From the IMG/VR virus record IMGVR_UViG_3300012920_000116, positions 1-35,562 of that record: DNA of 35,562 nucleotides. One strand, written 5' to 3'. Shown one piece after another: positions 1 through 35,562 of the stretch. This DNA comes from a virus. Below the pieces are notes generated by a model that was not told the origin of the DNA, did not search any database, and saw only the letters and a program-made list of their open reading frames with translations. The position numbers and the translations under genes were made by a program. Every line of letters starts with the position of its first letter. Positions within the stretch are counted from its first letter, which is position 1.

Positions 1-250
1 AGTATTTAGCTGACAATTTATCGGAAGTCTGGCCATGCCTAGCATAATAAGACTTTCGCCTCATTTTATCTTTTTTCGTTTTAGGGTTTTTTCCTGCACC
101 TGTTACACCCTGTTGACCAAACCTAATTGTCTTAATTTTATCTCCAACCTTTGCAACCACAATATGGCTTTTGGTTTTATGATTTGGTGTTCTCTTCGGC
201 TTATTGTATCCAGATACCCCTGCCTTTTCTAATCTATAATCTTTTGCCAT
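1..250 (-). CDS. DUF5754-family small basic protein, left copy (3' end cut by window edge)
   Basis: This is the first 83 codons of a 90-aa lysine-rich protein; the C-terminus lies beyond base 1. It is the left-hand homologue of the complete gene at 34921-35193: the two align without gaps and differ at about 10 of 250 bases. Almost all changes are synonymous; the one residue change I see is Ser here for Gln in the RRKxYYARHG segment. The N-terminal GYNKPKRTP and IRFGQQGV blocks match what I know of DUF5754, whose function is unknown. The start codon abuts the terL stop codon directly, so the gene is probably translationally coupled to terL in this version of the locus. Seen: the homology and the truncation. 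Inferred: that this is the same locus from a second strain. Confidence 0.85.
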   Translation of the reverse strand, partial: MAKDYRLEKAGVSGYNKPKRTPNHKTKSHIVVAKVGDKIKTIRFGQQGVTGAGKNPKTKKDKMRRKSYYARHGQTSDKLSAKY

Positions 251-338
251 TTAAATAATCCATGATGTATCAGGCCTGAAAACCTTCCTACTATTCCACC
301 TGCCATATGATCCAGAGGCCAATGCACCCTGATCGGCA
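1..338. repeat. Imperfect terminal redundancy, left arm (pairs with 34944-35562)
   Basis: Bases 1-250 align with 34944-35193, and bases 251-338 (3' end of terL) align with 35475-35562. The differences are scattered substitutions, mostly synonymous, and a clean 281-bp insert in the right copy between the terL stop and the DUF5754 start. Identical ends would indicate a closed circle. These ends indicate overlap of two strain variants of one circular map. Confidence 0.9.
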
Positions 339-1642
339 AATGTTAAGACAAAACTATCCGCAACGTCTGGAGACCTCTGGCCTCGCCTTTTCATCTCGTC
401 TTTACTTTCAATCTTTAACTTACCTGTCGATAAATATTTATAACGAATACTGGTTAACTCCTGTATCAAGGCATCGTCTTGGGGTATCTTTACATCCCTG
501 CCCTCAAACCATTCCCTAGCATTCCAAAATAATTCATCTCTTAACCTGCCAAATTTATCCTTCAGACTAGCTGATTCAGAAACTGCCACCGATACCGCAG
601 GAAGATCTAATTCTTTGAGCCTGTCAGCCAATCCTGCACCAATACCAATCGCATCAATGTAAATAGCCTCTGGCCTGTCAGAATATCTTACCGCCTCGTA
701 CTCAGATAAAATAATTCCTGCCATCTCCATAATGTCTTTGCCAGAATAAGTCTTAATCGGCTCTAATAACTCCTGACCCCTTCTCTTGGCCAAGGCCGAC
801 CTGTCAGATCCGTATCTGGCTACATCAACACCCCAAACAACTGGTGTTGTCGGTGAAGGCTCTACATCCCTTGTAATAGCTGTTTCAAGTAAATGCATGG
901 GCAATAACACATCATCAGACTGATCAGGAAAATCACCTGCCACCCTGACCCTCCAAATATTGCTATCCTCAGAATATTTGGATCTCATGTCCTCTAAAAA
1001 CTGTTCGGATACATATTCACTTTCCAAACAACTTACCTTCATCGTAAACCAACGATGTCTCATGCTATGGAAGGCCTCATAAAAATATCCGTCAGACCTT
1101 GTGGGGTTACCACACATAACAACCTTCGCACCCTCGGTAGATAAACTACCTTCCGCAACCTGAAATATAATATCAGGAATACCAGAGGCCTCTTCACAAA
1201 TAAAAAGCATATTCTCAGAATGAAAACCCTGTAAACTCTCTGGACTTTCCCTTCTGGATACCCTGCATACCGCATAACTGTCTTTTGCACCATGTAAGGC
1301 AATTTTATCCGACTTTATGTCCAACTGACTTTTAAAGCCATCAGGCAACTGCCTGTACCATTTATCCAATTCAGTCCACAAAACATCCTGCAACTGGTGT
1401 TGTGTATTTCCAGTAATTGCAATCTTGCAAGGATAATGAGTAAGCATCCACCATAAAATCAACCATGACTGAAAGGCTGTCTTTCCAACACCATGACCAG
1501 ACCTGATCGCAACCTTATCATTTTTTTGTATGCCCCTTAATGCCTTCTTCTGCCACTTCTGGGGGGTAGCATTCAATACCTTCTCTACAAATAAAACTGG
1601 ATCGTTTCGTAATTTCAATAATGTTTCAGTCGCTTTATCCAA
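251..1642 (-). CDS. terL: Terminase large subunit
   Basis: This is the packaging ATPase/nuclease that drives DNA into the prohead through the portal. From a TTG start at 1642 (463 aa) the landmarks are Walker A SGHGVGKT at residues 48-55, Walker B FICEEA at 147-152, a GNPTRSDG coupling-type motif near 178, and RNase-H-fold nuclease acidic residues at D273 (GVDVARYGSD) and D330 (YIDA), with a SPDVADS acidic motif near the C-terminus. The open frame extends to another TTG at 1801, but the extra 53 residues look untranslated: they are PPPSRQAGG-like, start in a C9 run and overlap a hairpin. The GGCGGA before TTG 1642 is a plausible ribosome site. TerS precedes it and DUF5754 follows. The start is uncertain; the function is not. 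Confidence 0.93.
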   Translation of the reverse strand: MDKATETLLKLRNDPVLFVEKVLNATPQKWQKKALRGIQKNDKVAIRSGHGVGKTAFQSWLILWWMLTHYPCKIAITGNTQHQLQDVLWTELDKWYRQLPDGFKSQLDIKSDKIALHGAKDSYAVCRVSRRESPESLQGFHSENMLFICEEASGIPDIIFQVAEGSLSTEGAKVVMCGNPTRSDGYFYEAFHSMRHRWFTMKVSCLESEYVSEQFLEDMRSKYSEDSNIWRVRVAGDFPDQSDDVLLPMHLLETAITRDVEPSPTTPVVWGVDVARYGSDRSALAKRRGQELLEPIKTYSGKDIMEMAGIILSEYEAVRYSDRPEAIYIDAIGIGAGLADRLKELDLPAVSVAVSESASLKDKFGRLRDELFWNAREWFEGRDVKIPQDDALIQELTSIRYKYLSTGKLKIESKDEMKRRGQRSPDVADSFVLTFADQGALASGSYGRWNSRKVFRPDTSWII

Positions 1643-1879
1643 AAGTCCGCCCCTATCCCTCCAACATGGCAAGGGGAGACCCCATGTAGATACCAACGTA
1701 ATTATGAGGGGTATATATATTTTACACCTGCCCCCTGCCTGTCTCGAAGGGGGGGGGTAAAACAGAAAATCCCTGTAAAATTCCCTGATCTGGTTATCCA
1801 AATAGTTACCCAGATATATGTTTGTTAATTAATTCAATAACTTAGCTAGTGTATTCGTCAGGTTAAATATGTAACGACA
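1643..1879. other. terS-terL spacer with G-rich segment and hairpin
   Basis: This 237-bp spacer holds no convincing gene. A hairpin-capable segment at 1720-1762 pairs TTTTAC with GTAAAA and CCCCCT with AGGGGG across a short loop, and includes a run of nine G (1749-1757). The stretch 1655-1760 is much richer in G/C than its surroundings. It could be the terL leader, a packaging (pac/cos) recognition site, or a small inserted palindrome; the sequence does not decide. Confidence 0.5.
1793..1812 (-). repeat. 20-bp TGGRTAAC tandem motif, copy 1
   Basis: The minus strand reads TGGGTAACTATTTGGATAAC, two TGGRTAAC units separated by TATT. A near-identical element (TGGATAACTATTTGGGTAAC) lies on the plus strand at 11593-11612 beside the late terminator. 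Role unknown; a protein-binding site is possible. Confidence 0.5.
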
Positions 1880-4581: not shown

Positions 4582-4895
4582 TAACTTCGCCCTGCAATAA
4601 GTTCTAAGGCATCATCGTAATCCATAACCATTAAGGCCTTATTGTTGTCTGACTTGATAATTAATGCGTCATGGCCATCAATCCACTTGTATATTTCCTT
4701 AAAGCCACTTGCCCTGCATTTAACTTCAATGTGCCACTTCTCACCGCCTGTTTTATTCAGTATTAAATCGCCCTTCATAACATCTGTAGCACCACTTAAT
4801 GGCACTCGGTAACACTCGATATCATCATGAAGCAAGGCCTGTTTTCTTAGGTTGTTTTCAGTCCTGTAACCTTTATCTCTCGATGCTTTTCCCAT
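4581..4895 (-). CDS. Holliday-junction-resolvase-like PD-(D/E)XK nuclease
   Basis: The start is placed at ATG 4895 because GGAGG lies 9 bases upstream; the longer frame to 4925 lacks this. The 104-aa product begins MGKASRDKGYRTENNL and carries RVPLSGATDVMKGDLIL (Asp of the PD motif) and HIEVKCR (the EXK motif), followed by YKWIDGHDALIIKSD. This is the pattern of small phage/archaeal Hjc-like resolvases, which cut recombination or replication intermediates before packaging. It overlaps the 3' end of the Cro-like gene by 23 bp. Its stop overlaps the initiator start (TAATG). Active-site residues appear intact. Confidence 0.82.
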   Translation of the reverse strand: MGKASRDKGYRTENNLRKQALLHDDIECYRVPLSGATDVMKGDLILNKTGGEKWHIEVKCRASGFKEIYKWIDGHDALIIKSDNNKALMVMDYDDALELIAGRS

Positions 4896-5076
4896 GTATC
4901 CAATCCTCCAATGCAACTTGACCATTTGACCATTTATAAATCTCTATCATATGCTTACCAGAGGGCAAGCCTTTTTGATAGAGCCACTTATTAACCGATG
5001 ATTGATTTACACCCAACAGTCGTGCTAATTCGACCTGCCTGATGCCTTTTTCAACCATATATGCACTTAATTTCAT
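4873..5076 (-). CDS. Cro-like HTH transcriptional regulator
   Basis: A 67-aa protein that is almost entirely one Cro/C1-type helix-turn-helix: VELARLLGVNQSSVNKWL at residues 15-32 is the reading head. It is the first gene of the leftward operon and faces the divergent control region, where it probably binds the AAGGCATA inverted repeats and regulates both early transcripts. It resembles Cro or YdaS-type regulators in size. No larger CI-like repressor with a dimerisation or peptidase domain is visible in the window, so this may be the only early switch protein. The ribosome site is AAGGGG about 10 bases upstream. Confidence 0.85.
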   Translation of the reverse strand: MKLSAYMVEKGIRQVELARLLGVNQSSVNKWLYQKGLPSGKHMIEIYKWSNGQVALEDWIHGKSIER

Positions 5077-7957: not shown

Positions 7958-8791
7958 ATGAGTTTTAAATTACCAAAAGAAAAGGTTTTAATTAGTTTTA
8001 GTGGTGGTCGAACTAGTGGGTATATGCTGTATAAAATAATTGAAGCTAATAATGGTTTAAACTCAAATGTAAAAGTTACTTTTGCTAATACTGGTCGTGA
8101 GATGCCAGAAACTTTAGATTTTGTTCAACAATGTTCAGAAAAATGGAGTGTTCATATAGATTGGCTTGAATTTGATTATAAATCTGTAAACAAAAATAAA
8201 AACAAATATTCATTTAGAGAAGTTTCACACAATTCTGCTTCAAGAAATGGAAAGCCATTTATTGATATTATTAAAGCAAAAAAAACTTTACCAGATGCTT
8301 TACAAAGATTTTGCACAGTTGAATTAAAAATTAGAACAATTACAAGATTTCTTAAATCACTTGGTTGGCAAAGTTGGATAAACACAATAGGCATTAGAGC
8401 AGATGAAAGTCATAGAGCAAAAGAATCAAGACAAAAAGAGTTTGTGAATTGGTTTCCTTTATTAGATAACAAAACAACAAAACAAGATATTTTAGATTTT
8501 TGGAAAAAACAAAGTTTTGATCTGAAAATAACTCGTGGGTTTGGAAATTGTGATGGTTGTTTTTTAAAAAGTGAAAGAACTATTTCGGTACTTTGGAAAA
8601 TGCACCCAGAAAGGGCAAAATGGTGGAGTGATTTGGAAAAATTAAGACATGGTCTTGATAAAAGAAAAAGACAATTTCATAAAGCAAGAACCTATGAACA
8701 AATTGGTCAATTTGTAGAACAGCAAGGCGATTGGATTTTTGACAATGAAGATGCTTTATGTCAAGCAAATGATGGAGAATGTACAATATAA
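7958..8791 (+). CDS. PAPS-reductase-family PP-loop enzyme
   Basis: A 277-aa member of the phosphoadenosine phosphosulfate reductase superfamily. The N-terminal ATP-pyrophosphatase PP-loop is SGGRTSG at residues 15-21. ANTGREMPETLDFV (43-56) is the family's conserved strand-2 motif, and IGIRADESHR follows near 144-153. C119, C198 and C201 (GNCDGC) give a C-x78-CxxC spacing like Fe-S-containing members, and the protein ends in DGECTI, reminiscent of the CysH ECGIH active-site Cys. Relatives in phages are common but their substrate is not settled; sulfur or nucleic-acid modification is possible. Last gene of the operon. By eye it is more A+T-rich than its neighbours, suggesting later acquisition. 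Confidence 0.82.
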   Translation: MSFKLPKEKVLISFSGGRTSGYMLYKIIEANNGLNSNVKVTFANTGREMPETLDFVQQCSEKWSVHIDWLEFDYKSVNKNKNKYSFREVSHNSASRNGKPFIDIIKAKKTLPDALQRFCTVELKIRTITRFLKSLGWQSWINTIGIRADESHRAKESRQKEFVNWFPLLDNKTTKQDILDFWKKQSFDLKITRGFGNCDGCFLKSERTISVLWKMHPERAKWWSDLEKLRHGLDKRKRQFHKARTYEQIGQFVEQQGDWIFDNEDALCQANDGECTI

Positions 8792-8801
8792 AAAATAACT
8801 T

Positions 8802-9980
8802 TTACCTCAACTTTCTATACAATTCATCGGCCTCAGATGAACTTCTAGCCTGTTCAAGATCAACTAATGTGTAATTAGTCTCGGCAGTATTTGATAGCTT
8901 ACTATGCCCCATTCTGGCCTTCCTGATATGTGGCGGTACTAATGCTATCAAAGAAGTATTAAAATACTTTCTAAAGCCACCGATGCCATGATACTCAACA
9001 CCTGCATTCTTACAAATAATTCTAAGTGTTCTTCTCATTTGATCCTGACAAAATGGCTTCCTGTTGTATCCATCATTTATACTTGCTTCGCTTGGAAAAA
9101 TTGGGTCATTAAGTGTATCTCCAAACCTTTCAGAATTTAACTGCCTAAAGTATGCTCTTAATTTGTGTCTAAACTCAGAAGGCAAACCTAACACTCTTTT
9201 TCTGAAACTAGTCTTAGTCTTTTGCTCATTACCTTTATTATCGACAGTTCTAGCTACAAGTAATTGGTTGTTGTCAAAGTCTAAATCAGACCACTTTAAA
9301 CCCTGTAATTCGTTAGCTGACAGGCCTGTAAAAGTAGCCAGATTAATGAAACACTCCATATATAAACTTGTTTTTACTCGAAGTAATTTAGTAATGTCGG
9401 CCTCAGAATATCCACCCCTTTGATTCTCTTCACCCCTGACCTGTATTCTACTATTAGAATTGTTAGGATTGTTTACAATAAAACCTTTATCAATGGCATA
9501 TTTAAAAACCATATTAAGGGTACTAAGGCAATGAAGGATAAGTTTCTTAGACTTATTCTTATCGGCCAGATGATTTACAAATAAGTTCACATCACCAGTT
9601 GTAATATCCTTGACTGGCTTCTGGCCAAAGAATGGATTTAAATGTAGTTTAATGTGCCTTACATCGTTGTCCTTGGTTCTTTCACTAATGCCATTGACTT
9701 TACGACCTACCGCCATCTTTCTGGCTTCTATGGCCATATCAGCTACACTTTCAAACTTACCCTCGGCATATAGCTGATTGTAACTATCCAGAGAATTAAT
9801 TAAGTCCTGTCTCTTAGCTTCCAGTTCAGACTTATTTTGATTGGTCATTCTAGAATATTTATCAGGGTACTGGCCTGTAATTCTACACTTCATTTTATAG
9901 TTGAAAGCATAGGACTGAAACTCCTTCCCATGCTTCATACCTTTTAAAACAAATATATTTCCTACTTTATAATTAGTCAT
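8802..9980 (-). CDS. int: Tyrosine recombinase (integrase), divergent active site
   Basis: A 392-aa tyrosine-recombinase-type integrase: an N-terminal arm-binding-like region, a SAM-like core-binding domain (residues 75-175) and a catalytic domain (190-392). Conserved features are the beta-hairpin lysine (KTKTSFRKRVLGL, 254-266), R337 in GGFRKYF, H359 in MGHSKL and the nucleophile Y370 in TNYT. Two catalytic positions look altered: box I reads TGLSANEL (S221 where TGLRxxEL is expected), and the His normally two residues before the second Arg is Gly. It may be inactive or unusually adapted. Last gene of its operon, converging on the PAPS-reductase-like gene with a 10-bp gap. No attP is recognisable beside it. 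Confidence 0.85.
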   Translation of the reverse strand: MTNYKVGNIFVLKGMKHGKEFQSYAFNYKMKCRITGQYPDKYSRMTNQNKSELEAKRQDLINSLDSYNQLYAEGKFESVADMAIEARKMAVGRKVNGISERTKDNDVRHIKLHLNPFFGQKPVKDITTGDVNLFVNHLADKNKSKKLILHCLSTLNMVFKYAIDKGFIVNNPNNSNSRIQVRGEENQRGGYSEADITKLLRVKTSLYMECFINLATFTGLSANELQGLKWSDLDFDNNQLLVARTVDNKGNEQKTKTSFRKRVLGLPSEFRHKLRAYFRQLNSERFGDTLNDPIFPSEASINDGYNRKPFCQDQMRRTLRIICKNAGVEYHGIGGFRKYFNTSLIALVPPHIRKARMGHSKLSNTAETNYTLVDLEQARSSSEADELYRKLR

Positions 9981-32704: not shown

Positions 32705-34927
32705 TTAAGTTAAAAGGCCATATGCCCTTAATTGTTCTGGACTTGCCCCTGTAAGCGATTGGATGTTTCTACGAAATCCTTCGGATACAGGTACTCTGTT
32801 ACCAGTTTGTATCTGCCCACTATCGCCTCCTTGGTCACCTTTTCTACCTGATTGTTGTGTTTTTCCAACAGATCCTGTAGTTGATTGTCCAGAGAGATTT
32901 CTTGCAGTTCCGACAGTTCGTTTAGTTTGTCTATTCCTAAAGAATTGAGTACCTTCCTCGAGAAATCTTCGTGTAGCATTTTTTCTGACTGCATCTATTC
33001 CCTGCCATTTCATTATTACCAGATCTGGAAATCCAAACTTTTCATTCCATCCTTGGTTTCTCCATTGTGCCAACAACTTGCGGTATTTTTGCTCACTACC
33101 ACCAAATTCTGGGTCTCTTACATATTTAGGATCAAATTTTACAGATCCAAGTTCTTTGAATCCAAATTCTGAATAGTAACTTGGCAAAAACCCATCTGGA
33201 TATGCTTTTGATCTTACTGCATATGCATCGAGAACAGTAGCACCATTTTCAACACCTTTCAATATTGAACTTGGAACAGCTAGTCCTTTTGAGGCATATC
33301 CAAACTCATTATTCATTACTCCAACAATGGCTGTTTCATTCTTTGTTAACTCAGGATGAGTAAACCCATAATCGGCTTCATAGTCTGTATTTTTCTTTAA
33401 ACCAAAATAAACTCTGCCATTTGTTTTATTATCACCTAGTCCATAAAACACAAGTGAGCCATCTTTTGCTCCATCCTGTATTTCTTTGAGACTGTATTTT
33501 GTTAGACTTTCAGATAAAATATTATCATCAAATCCATCAACAATTTCTATTGGTTTCAATCCGCCTTGATTGACTGGTGTTAATGTAGATCTCCAATTAG
33601 AATTTACTGTATCTGACAGCAATTGAGCATGACGAGCAGAATTTATATTGCCTAGTTTTGGCACACTCATGCCTCTGGCAATCTCAGGTGTAATTTCACC
33701 TGTTACATTTGACATTGAAAATGCCCTAACGTCAGATTTTTCTGGCTTTCCTAACTTCCTTCTTCCTGCAAACCATTCAGGAAAAATATTTTGTGCAGGT
33801 ATAGGAGTTTGAAATTTTGCAACAGGCCTTCCTAAAACCGCATAATCATAACTTATATGTGGAACACCTCCAATATCAGAAACTTTTACAGGATTGGCTT
33901 TATCTAACTCTAGTAAAATTAAACTATCCATTGGATTTACACCTGCTTCAGCAGGATTAATTGTCTCTGCTACAATCCTTGGAATGTTCGGAGCATTTAA
34001 ATCCCTTGCTCTACGACTGTTTAAAGCCTCTGCAAAATTCTTTGCAGTTTCAAAATCTAAACTATCTAAATATTCATTCAGTTTTGGTGAATTAAATCCT
34101 ACAAAATCTTGTAATTTTTCAGCACCTTTTTTTGTTTGGCCTACAGATTTTATTAAGTTATCTAATTTTATTACATTTTCTGGTGTAATATTTCCTGCAT
34201 CAATTTCTGCTTTTGTCTGATTACCAAATATCCTTCTCATCGTTTTATTTGAAACTTGTGAAGGCAATTTGCCAAAAGACTGAGGGTTCATAGCTGTTAC
34301 TACAGCATAATCAGCACCTCGTTTTGTCGCTGATGTAGCTTGGCCTAATCCTAAATTTGCAAATGCAAGATTTTTATCTCTACTACTTTGCATCAAAGGA
34401 TACTTTGACCCACCCTGTAAAGGAATGGGTGTTATTTGTACATCATCTAATCCTGAATAAAACCTACCTGCATCCATCAAATCCGCAGGAAAAGGTGTGA
34501 TTTTTTTGCCAAGTAAATTCTCAACAGGAAATGCATCACTTCCTACAAATGGCAAATCATCCACAACCCTTATATCTTTTGCGGTTATGTTATCAACAGA
34601 TTTTGCAGGTTTTGAACCTAAAGACAAACCTGATACATAGGGTGTAGCACCTAGTAAAGTCTCACCAGAAGTTAATAATCCATATATATCTCTTGTTAAT
34701 CTTGGATTATCAGACAAAGAACCAATACCTGAAGCAATGCCTCTTTTACCTGTTTCATAAGTTCTGCCTAATAAATCAAAAGCATCAATAAAAGGTTGAC
34801 TGACTGCCCTGTTAAAAAGTCCAAAAGTATTATCTTGAAATATACTTGGATATTCCTGAAACAAAGTAGTCGATAAATTAGGGGCATCAAATGGTGCAGT
34901 AATATTATAGTTCTGTTGCATTACCAT
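32705..34927 (-). CDS. Large virion-type protein with C-terminal GNAT-like domain
   Basis: 740 aa, the largest gene. It starts MVMQQNYNI with AAGG upstream, overlapping the DUF5754 stop. Residues 1-420 are not recognised, with a Gly-rich segment (GIASGIGSLSD) and helical stretches. Residues 562-641 (GATVLDAYAV, YYSEFGFKELG, GFPDLVIMKW) resemble the GNAT-like domain found in phage polyvalent and minor-head proteins: the G...LD......L..Y...GF pattern followed by PDLV.M. The Gly/Gln/Ser-rich tail is disordered (TTGSVGKTQQSGRKGDQGGD). It could be packaged in the virion and delivered to the host. The domain assignment is tentative; the gene itself is certain. Confidence 0.8.
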   Translation of the reverse strand: MVMQQNYNITAPFDAPNLSTTLFQEYPSIFQDNTFGLFNRAVSQPFIDAFDLLGRTYETGKRGIASGIGSLSDNPRLTRDIYGLLTSGETLLGATPYVSGLSLGSKPAKSVDNITAKDIRVVDDLPFVGSDAFPVENLLGKKITPFPADLMDAGRFYSGLDDVQITPIPLQGGSKYPLMQSSRDKNLAFANLGLGQATSATKRGADYAVVTAMNPQSFGKLPSQVSNKTMRRIFGNQTKAEIDAGNITPENVIKLDNLIKSVGQTKKGAEKLQDFVGFNSPKLNEYLDSLDFETAKNFAEALNSRRARDLNAPNIPRIVAETINPAEAGVNPMDSLILLELDKANPVKVSDIGGVPHISYDYAVLGRPVAKFQTPIPAQNIFPEWFAGRRKLGKPEKSDVRAFSMSNVTGEITPEIARGMSVPKLGNINSARHAQLLSDTVNSNWRSTLTPVNQGGLKPIEIVDGFDDNILSESLTKYSLKEIQDGAKDGSLVFYGLGDNKTNGRVYFGLKKNTDYEADYGFTHPELTKNETAIVGVMNNEFGYASKGLAVPSSILKGVENGATVLDAYAVRSKAYPDGFLPSYYSEFGFKELGSVKFDPKYVRDPEFGGSEQKYRKLLAQWRNQGWNEKFGFPDLVIMKWQGIDAVRKNATRRFLEEGTQFFRNRQTKRTVGTARNLSGQSTTGSVGKTQQSGRKGDQGGDSGQIQTGNRVPVSEGFRRNIQSLTGASPEQLRAYGLLT

Positions 34928-35193
34928 TTTACCTTATGAGACCAGTATTTAGCTGACAATTTATCGGAAGTCTGACCATGCCTAGCATAATACTGCTTCC
35001 GCCTCATTTTATCTTTTTTCGTTTTAGGGTTTTTTCCTGCACCTGTTACACCCTGCTGACCAAACCTAATTGTTTTAATTTTATCTCCAACCTTCGCAAC
35101 CACAATATGGCTCTTGGTTTTATGATTTGGTGTTCTCTTCGGTTTATTGTATCCAGATACCCCTGCCTTTTCTAATCTATAATCTTTTGCCAT
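34921..35193 (-). CDS. DUF5754-family small basic protein, complete right copy
   Basis: 90 aa: DYRLEKAGVSGYNKPKRTPNHKTKSHIVVAKVG, then IKTIRFGQQGVTGAGKNPK, RRKQYYARHGQTSDKLSAKYW and the C-terminal SHKVKW. This is the full DUF5754 pattern, a lysine-rich family of unknown function from marine phages and large viruses. In this copy the start codon is separated from terL by a 281-bp inserted cassette, and its ribosome site is weak, whereas in the left copy (1-250) it abuts the terL stop. The stop overlaps the 740-aa gene start. Confidence 0.85.
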   Translation of the reverse strand: MAKDYRLEKAGVSGYNKPKRTPNHKTKSHIVVAKVGDKIKTIRFGQQGVTGAGKNPKTKKDKMRRKQYYARHGQTSDKLSAKYWSHKVKW

Positions 35194-35228
35194 CTTAATA
35201 CTTTACATTATTTTTTTTGTATAAACCC

Positions 35229-35258
35229 TTGATTTCCCAGGATATTTTATTATATAAT
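35229..35258 (+). promoter_or_regulatory. Promoter of the inserted 62-aa gene
   Basis: TTGATT (35229-35234), 18-base spacer, consensus TATAAT (35253-35258). A strong AGGAGG (35265-35270) and the ATG at 35276 follow directly, leaving a very short leader; a slightly more upstream -10 cannot be excluded. Confidence 0.55.
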
Positions 35259-35275
35259 AAATATAGGAGGCATCA

Positions 35276-35464
35276 ATGATACTAGAAAATCTAAAAAAAT
35301 TTGAAAAAGATATCACAAAATCTTTTACAAAAAACCCAAATAAATCGCATAGATCAAACTACATTAGGCTTTGGGATACTGCCATGAAGCATGAACTTTA
35401 TGACAGTTTTAGTCCAGATGATCTAAATGATGTAATGAACAAATTAGAGAAAAAGAGGCTTTAG
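35276..35464 (+). CDS. 62-aa moron-type gene, unknown function
   Basis: A plus-strand gene set between minus-strand late genes, with a perfect AGGAGG ribosome site 5 bases before ATG, its own promoter and its own terminator that overlaps the stop codon. The product is helical and basic (LENLKKFEKDITKSFTKNP, then a WDTAMKHELYDSF segment and a DDLNDVMNKLEKKRL end), with no cysteine, signal or membrane segment. It reads like a small charged helical bundle and is not recognised. It is absent from the left-hand copy of the same locus, so it is accessory. Roles in superinfection immunity or host fitness are possible but unsupported. Confidence 0.8.
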   Translation: MILENLKKFEKDITKSFTKNPNKSHRSNYIRLWDTAMKHELYDSFSPDDLNDVMNKLEKKRL

Positions 35465-35477
35465 GCCTCTTTTTTTA
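35450..35477. terminator. Bidirectional terminator of the inserted cassette
   Basis: AAAAAGAGGC (35450-35459) pairs with GCCTCTTTTT (from 35465) around TTTAG; seven T follow on the plus strand. On the minus strand the same stem is followed by TTTTTCTC, so it also terminates transcription coming out of terL. The TAG in the loop is the stop codon of the 62-aa gene. Confidence 0.85.
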
Positions 35478-35562
35478 TATTATCCATGATGTATCAGGCC
35501 TAAAAACCTTCCTACTATTCCACCTGCCATATGATCCAGAGGCCAATGCACCCTGATCGGCA
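35475..35562 (-). CDS. terL: Terminase large subunit, 3' end, right copy (partial)
   Basis: The last 28 codons and stop of a terL homologue, cut by the window edge. It encodes the same C-terminus as the left copy (ending RPDTSWII) with only synonymous changes (for example ATA-ATA for ATT-ATT at the two last codons, and TTT for TTC). This confirms that the window wraps around on the terL locus. Confidence 0.85.
   Translation of the reverse strand, partial: ADQGALASGSYGRWNSRKVFRPDTSWII

Follow-up and report, generated by a model that had tools for sequence, protein, structure and literature searches.

The question raised by this locus is how a single viral record can show the same pair of neighbouring genes in two arrangements, directly adjoining at one end and separated by a small putative transcription unit at the other, and what this unit might do for the phage that carries it. 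The window, i.e. the whole stretch of DNA that was analysed, is a complete IMG/VR virus record (IMGVR_UViG_3300012920_000116; 35,562 nt).

Two arrangements of one interval

The two ends of the window overlap in sequence, positions 1-257 matching 34944-35200 with 95% identity and positions 250-338 matching 35474-35562 with 97% identity. At the left end the stop codon of terL abuts the ATG of a DUF5754-like gene with 0 nt between them, and at the right end exactly 281 nt (35194-35474) separate the same two codons; both arrangements, including the clean placement of the insert, are as the first-pass annotation had described them. The features concerned are:

2..250, minus strand: DUF5754-like gene, partial (cut by the window end), insert-minus allele, directly after terL
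251..1801, minus strand: terL (phrog_2), insert-minus allele, last codons ATT ATT TAA
34921..35193, minus strand: DUF5754-like gene, 90 aa, phrog_7595 (ORF and PHROGs), insert-plus allele
35194..35474, no strand: inserted cassette, from terL stop to DUF5754-like start (presence/absence among relatives)
35475..35562, minus strand: terL 3' end, insert-plus allele, last codons ATA ATA TAA

The flanks had been said to differ at about 10 in 250 bases, mostly synonymously, and the 250 bases of the DUF5754-like gene common to both ends indeed contain 10 differences, three of them in one codon (Ser/Gln) and the others silent. The terL tail differs at 3 of 88 nt, two of these lying in the final two Ile codons, which touch the insert. 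The Pfam DUF5754 match of the window protein (E 0.14) falls below Pfam's cut-off, and 10 of 11 homologues of the 90-aa protein show the match, weakly (best 4e-4).

The insert and its predicted product

Within the insert, we distinguished the following elements:

35229..35258, plus strand: promoter-like TTGATT-18-TATAAT for the 62-aa gene (consensus match)
35246..35261, no strand: TTTATTATATAATAAA, a 16-bp perfect palindrome that contains both -10 hexamers
35249..35276, minus strand: promoter-like TTGATG-16-TATAAT, directed outward to the DUF5754-like gene and using the same symmetric -10 (consensus match)
35265..35270, plus strand: Shine-Dalgarno AGGAGG, 5 nt before the ATG (sequence)
35276..35464, plus strand: 62-aa ORF, an orphan, antisense to the late genes (ORF list, sequence)
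35450..35474, no strand: bidirectional intrinsic-terminator-like hairpin (folding)

The promoter, the 62-aa gene and the bidirectional terminator that had been assigned to the insert can all be recognised in its sequence, and by this predicted anatomy the insert is a moron, a self-contained antisense unit with a putative promoter, AGGAGG, 62 codons and a terminator. It separates two genes that adjoin one another in near relatives (the gap is 281 nt at the right end and 0 in L086, L087, L089 and at the left end). To judge from its sequence, it carries an intrinsic terminator of its own: either strand is predicted to form a stem-loop with a run of T (folding energies of -15.6 and -12.4 kcal/mol, with z scores of -4.1 and -3.0). 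The cassette has a GC content of 29%, lower than that of terL and other late genes (36-43%) but equal to that of another gene of the phage, at 7958-8791 (29%). Both promoters are consensus matches in AT-rich DNA. The plus-strand site, which is sigma-70-like, scores 10/12, and about 10% of shuffles give an equally good plus-strand site; two promoters at 10/12 within 97 nt were obtained in 0.9% of Markov shuffles of the same composition. The window has no other perfect palindrome of 16 bp than TTTATTATATAATAAA, inside which the two -10 hexamers overlap.

The minus-strand site that shares the palindromic -10 probably reads outward into the DUF5754-like gene, and the idea that the cassette simply cuts this gene off is therefore weakened; the cassette may restore the transcription that its terminator cuts. 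During lytic growth, the terminator would stop transcripts arriving from terL, and for the DUF5754-like gene transcription would begin anew at the divergent promoter, about 49 nt upstream of the ATG. If real, outward transcription of this kind would explain why a late operon can tolerate an antisense cassette that terminates transcription in both directions. Enterobacterial promoters with symmetric elements are known to drive transcription in both directions (PMC10268837, PMC12825309). Like the cassette, these bidirectional promoters have an overlapping symmetric -10 with a -35-like hexamer on each side; for the cassette, such activity is predicted from sequence.

The 62-aa gene is known from two sequences, the window and contig 3300030108_002757. 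It had been proposed to search the protein in phage databases; this search gave no match in phage records and a single IMG/VR contig, and at the sensitivity used no relative was found in Pfam, PHROGs, PADLOC, phage and plasmid records or GTDB genomes. Matches to Pfam DUF5601 (E 0.037) and to TRIM5 in the PDB (E 0.09), both helical proteins, are at chance level. A 40% match in one alphaproteobacterium has E 5.6e-4 for that one of 385 genomes, or about 0.2 overall; its motif seems to resemble the helical part of Lon protease, and the relation was treated as chance, the PDB search having returned no Lon chain up to E 5. The AlphaFold model (pLDDT 65) is mostly helical, with three main helices, and its confidence is too low to justify a fold search. 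On chromosomes, terL has its best relatives in an alphaproteobacterial MAG (53% identity).

It could be argued that the active product is a short RNA, antisense or regulatory, or that the unit is a promoter-terminator module with a palindromic operator, the 62-aa frame being incidental. The unique palindrome at the promoter, the lack of a homologue of the protein and the fact that, of the two differences between the copies, one is non-synonymous are compatible with this reading, as is prophage BTP1, in which an antisense RNA is known to confer superinfection exclusion (PMC7067206). We regard it as improbable, however, since AGGAGG is well spaced before the ATG, the ORF fills the unit with its stop at the terminator stem, and no known RNA family (Rfam) or tRNA was found in the cassette.

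For the protein reading, which we prefer, two further features of the window provide the context:

4873..5076, minus strand: Cro/CI-type HTH repressor-like protein
8802..9980, minus strand: tyrosine integrase (probably temperate)

Given the integrase and the Cro/CI-like protein, the phage is probably temperate, and an antisense position together with an own promoter is characteristic of prophage moron loci (PMC7067206). In the prophage, with the late genes switched off, the cassette's own promoter would drive its transcription, and the 62-aa protein would act on the lysogen through superinfection exclusion or another host-modifying effect, the usual roles of morons. By analogy, action in the lysogen is thus the most likely role of the protein, and our best guess, exclusion of other phages or a different effect in the lysogen, is taken from the moron class and not from this protein. 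The existence of insert-minus phages means that the lineage can do without the 62-aa gene.

Probable gain, boundaries and proposed spread of the insert

A protein scan of IMG/VR with the 62-aa ORF recovered one other contig, 3300030108_002757 (98% identity, same site), which we refer to as L085, L002 or L173 and whose cassette differs from that of the window at 2 of 281 positions (99.3% identity). The insert is absent from the close relatives L086 and L087 (contigs 3300017771_000447 and 3300020422_000002; terL 97-98% identical, gap 0), from the more distant L089, L090 and L091 (gap 0-3) and from the left end of the window, whose terL tail shows 0/88 differences from L087. The two alleles had been attributed to two natural lineages, to be checked in related genomes, and each is borne out on independent contigs, insert-plus on 3300030108_002757 and insert-minus on several relatives.

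In the terL tree, the window, the insert-plus L085, L086 and L087 form one clade of four rows (support 100/100). Three of the four rows adjoining this clade have a gap of 0, and the fourth, L088, contains a different 60-aa sense-strand gene in a gap of 193 nt. Because the insert-plus row stands among gap-0 rows, gain is the simpler polarity, and we consider it likelier that the 281-nt insert was gained in this clade than that it was lost. The converse, an ancestral cassette deleted from most relatives, would agree with the observation that distant relatives often hold some gene in the interval; but those genes are unrelated to the 62-aa gene, and the gap-0 relatives surround the insert-plus row and abut cleanly in all cases (identically in L086, L087 and the left end), which makes deletion a poor prospect.

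The insert is placed exactly between TAA and ATG. Its ends, AAAAAGAGGCC... and ...AAGTATTAAG, share no terminal inverted repeat, and no target-site duplication was found at the insert; a transposon or MITE was rejected on these grounds. Just before its stop codon, terL has the Ile pair ATA ATA in the two phages with the insert but ATT ATT in those that lack it, and the terL tail of L002 (88 nt) is otherwise identical to that of L086 and different from that of the window. ATA ATA thus goes with the insert on two terL backgrounds, and the transferred piece therefore probably reaches into the last bases of terL. Between the two phages, divergence of the cassette is below that of its neighbours (p 0.006 versus terL/terS; p 0.015 versus the DUF5754-like gene), which at most suggests a recent transfer of the cassette between them. 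Since some other 150-nt stretches are equally similar, a claim of unique conservation for the cassette was dropped. Movement between phages would occur by homologous recombination within terL and the DUF5754-like gene on either side, which would account for the co-transfer of the terL end.

L173, the 11.7-kb contig with the insert, can be aligned continuously to window positions 2116 to 250 followed by 35562 to 25357, and it contains, in one piece, terS, terL, the insert, the DUF5754-like gene and a 740-aa gene through to the major head protein; it follows that there is one locus and no tandem duplication. That one molecule contains both ends as separate loci, or that assembly joined contigs with no relation to each other, the case that had been named as refuting the presence/absence pair, is very improbable and ruled out as far as relatives show, for although the ends differ by 5% and an insert, and relatives rather than reads are the basis, L173 matches both ends in order and the insert-minus contigs keep the same gene order. 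We hold with good confidence that the window represents a temperate phage genome with an SU10-type portal, closed into a circle and put together from a mixed population, and that its ends carry alternative alleles with and without the 281-nt moron; we infer that, in assembly, a different allele was retained at either end of a self-closed genome. The 740-aa protein after the DUF5754-like gene (32705-34927) has no Pfam or PHROGs match and shows mostly about 69-93% identity to its counterpart in L173, while its start and other neighbours are near 97%.

The interval in related phages and comparison with known morons

Among 75 relatives with both genes, the gap between terL and the DUF5754-like gene ranges from -4 to 2293 nt. 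In many distant relatives the interval is occupied by an acidic gene of about 90 aa on the sense strand, and antisense genes led by a Shine-Dalgarno sequence occur there in at least five relatives: L116, L117/L118, L135, L145/L147/L133 and phage C72C1 (OQ984150). No mutual similarity was detected among ten compared cargo proteins and the 62-aa protein. A nearly identical antisense promoter, TTTTTTTGTTTGACA-N18-TATAGTTATATTAT, stands before different genes in L116, L117/L118 and C72C1, the common form being TTGACA-N18-TATAGT; TTGACA-N18-TATAGTTATATTAT precedes unrelated small genes in the regions 1416-2730 of L116, 3172-3908 of L117 and 17144-17878 of L165 (OQ984150). In the same interval, L145 (2672-3510) and L133 (4141-5212) encode an antisense phrog_3754 protein of 150-170 aa, and L107 (3260-4075) carries a sense-strand gene for a DNA-methyltransferase-like protein of 175 aa (phrog_799). 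In L171, a contig of a Pelagibacter-assigned MAG, a 67% identical DUF5754-like gene lies about 2.4 kb after a terL of 37% identity; the DUF5754-like gene apparently has a wider spread than the terminase gene.

The terS-terL interval, taken as a control, is variable too (from about 76 nt to more than 2 kb in L087, L090, L091, L154 and L160); therefore the flanks of terL in general, and not only the DUF5754 side, take up genes, and a unique variability of the terL-DUF5754 interval was dropped. A broader proposal is that in this widespread phage group the interval serves as an antisense site reserved for lysogeny genes, its cassettes pairing a bidirectional terminator with a bidirectional promoter so that late transcription, interrupted at the cargo, resumes beyond it with nothing lost; we put it forward as a speculative and rather unlikely one. 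The site indicates where further lysogeny genes may be sought in a large phage group with few named members.

The moron concept of temperate phages reportedly goes back to Juhala and Hendrix. With such morons the cassette shares a putative sigma-70-like promoter, a predicted intrinsic terminator and a site between genes that adjoin in relatives, and it is likewise antisense to late genes in a (probably) temperate phage (PMC7067206). Unlike usual morons, its gene is a very small orphan, its -10 is palindromic and probably serves outward reading as well, and its empty and filled alleles were met in one assembly. The cassettes of C72C1 (OQ984150), L116, L117, L135 and L145 occupy the same interval and are antisense, with small genes led by a Shine-Dalgarno sequence and a promoter on the DUF5754 side, but their cargo is unrelated to the 62-aa gene, and the TTGACA-N18-TATAGT promoter of C72C1, L116 and L117 is absent from the 281-nt cassette. 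A pair of insert-plus and insert-minus alleles at single-base resolution from a natural phage population makes the effect of a moron testable by its presence alone. Optional morons are already known; what is new here is the 62-aa cassette, its probable bidirectional promoter and the recurrence of antisense cassettes in the same slot of related phages.
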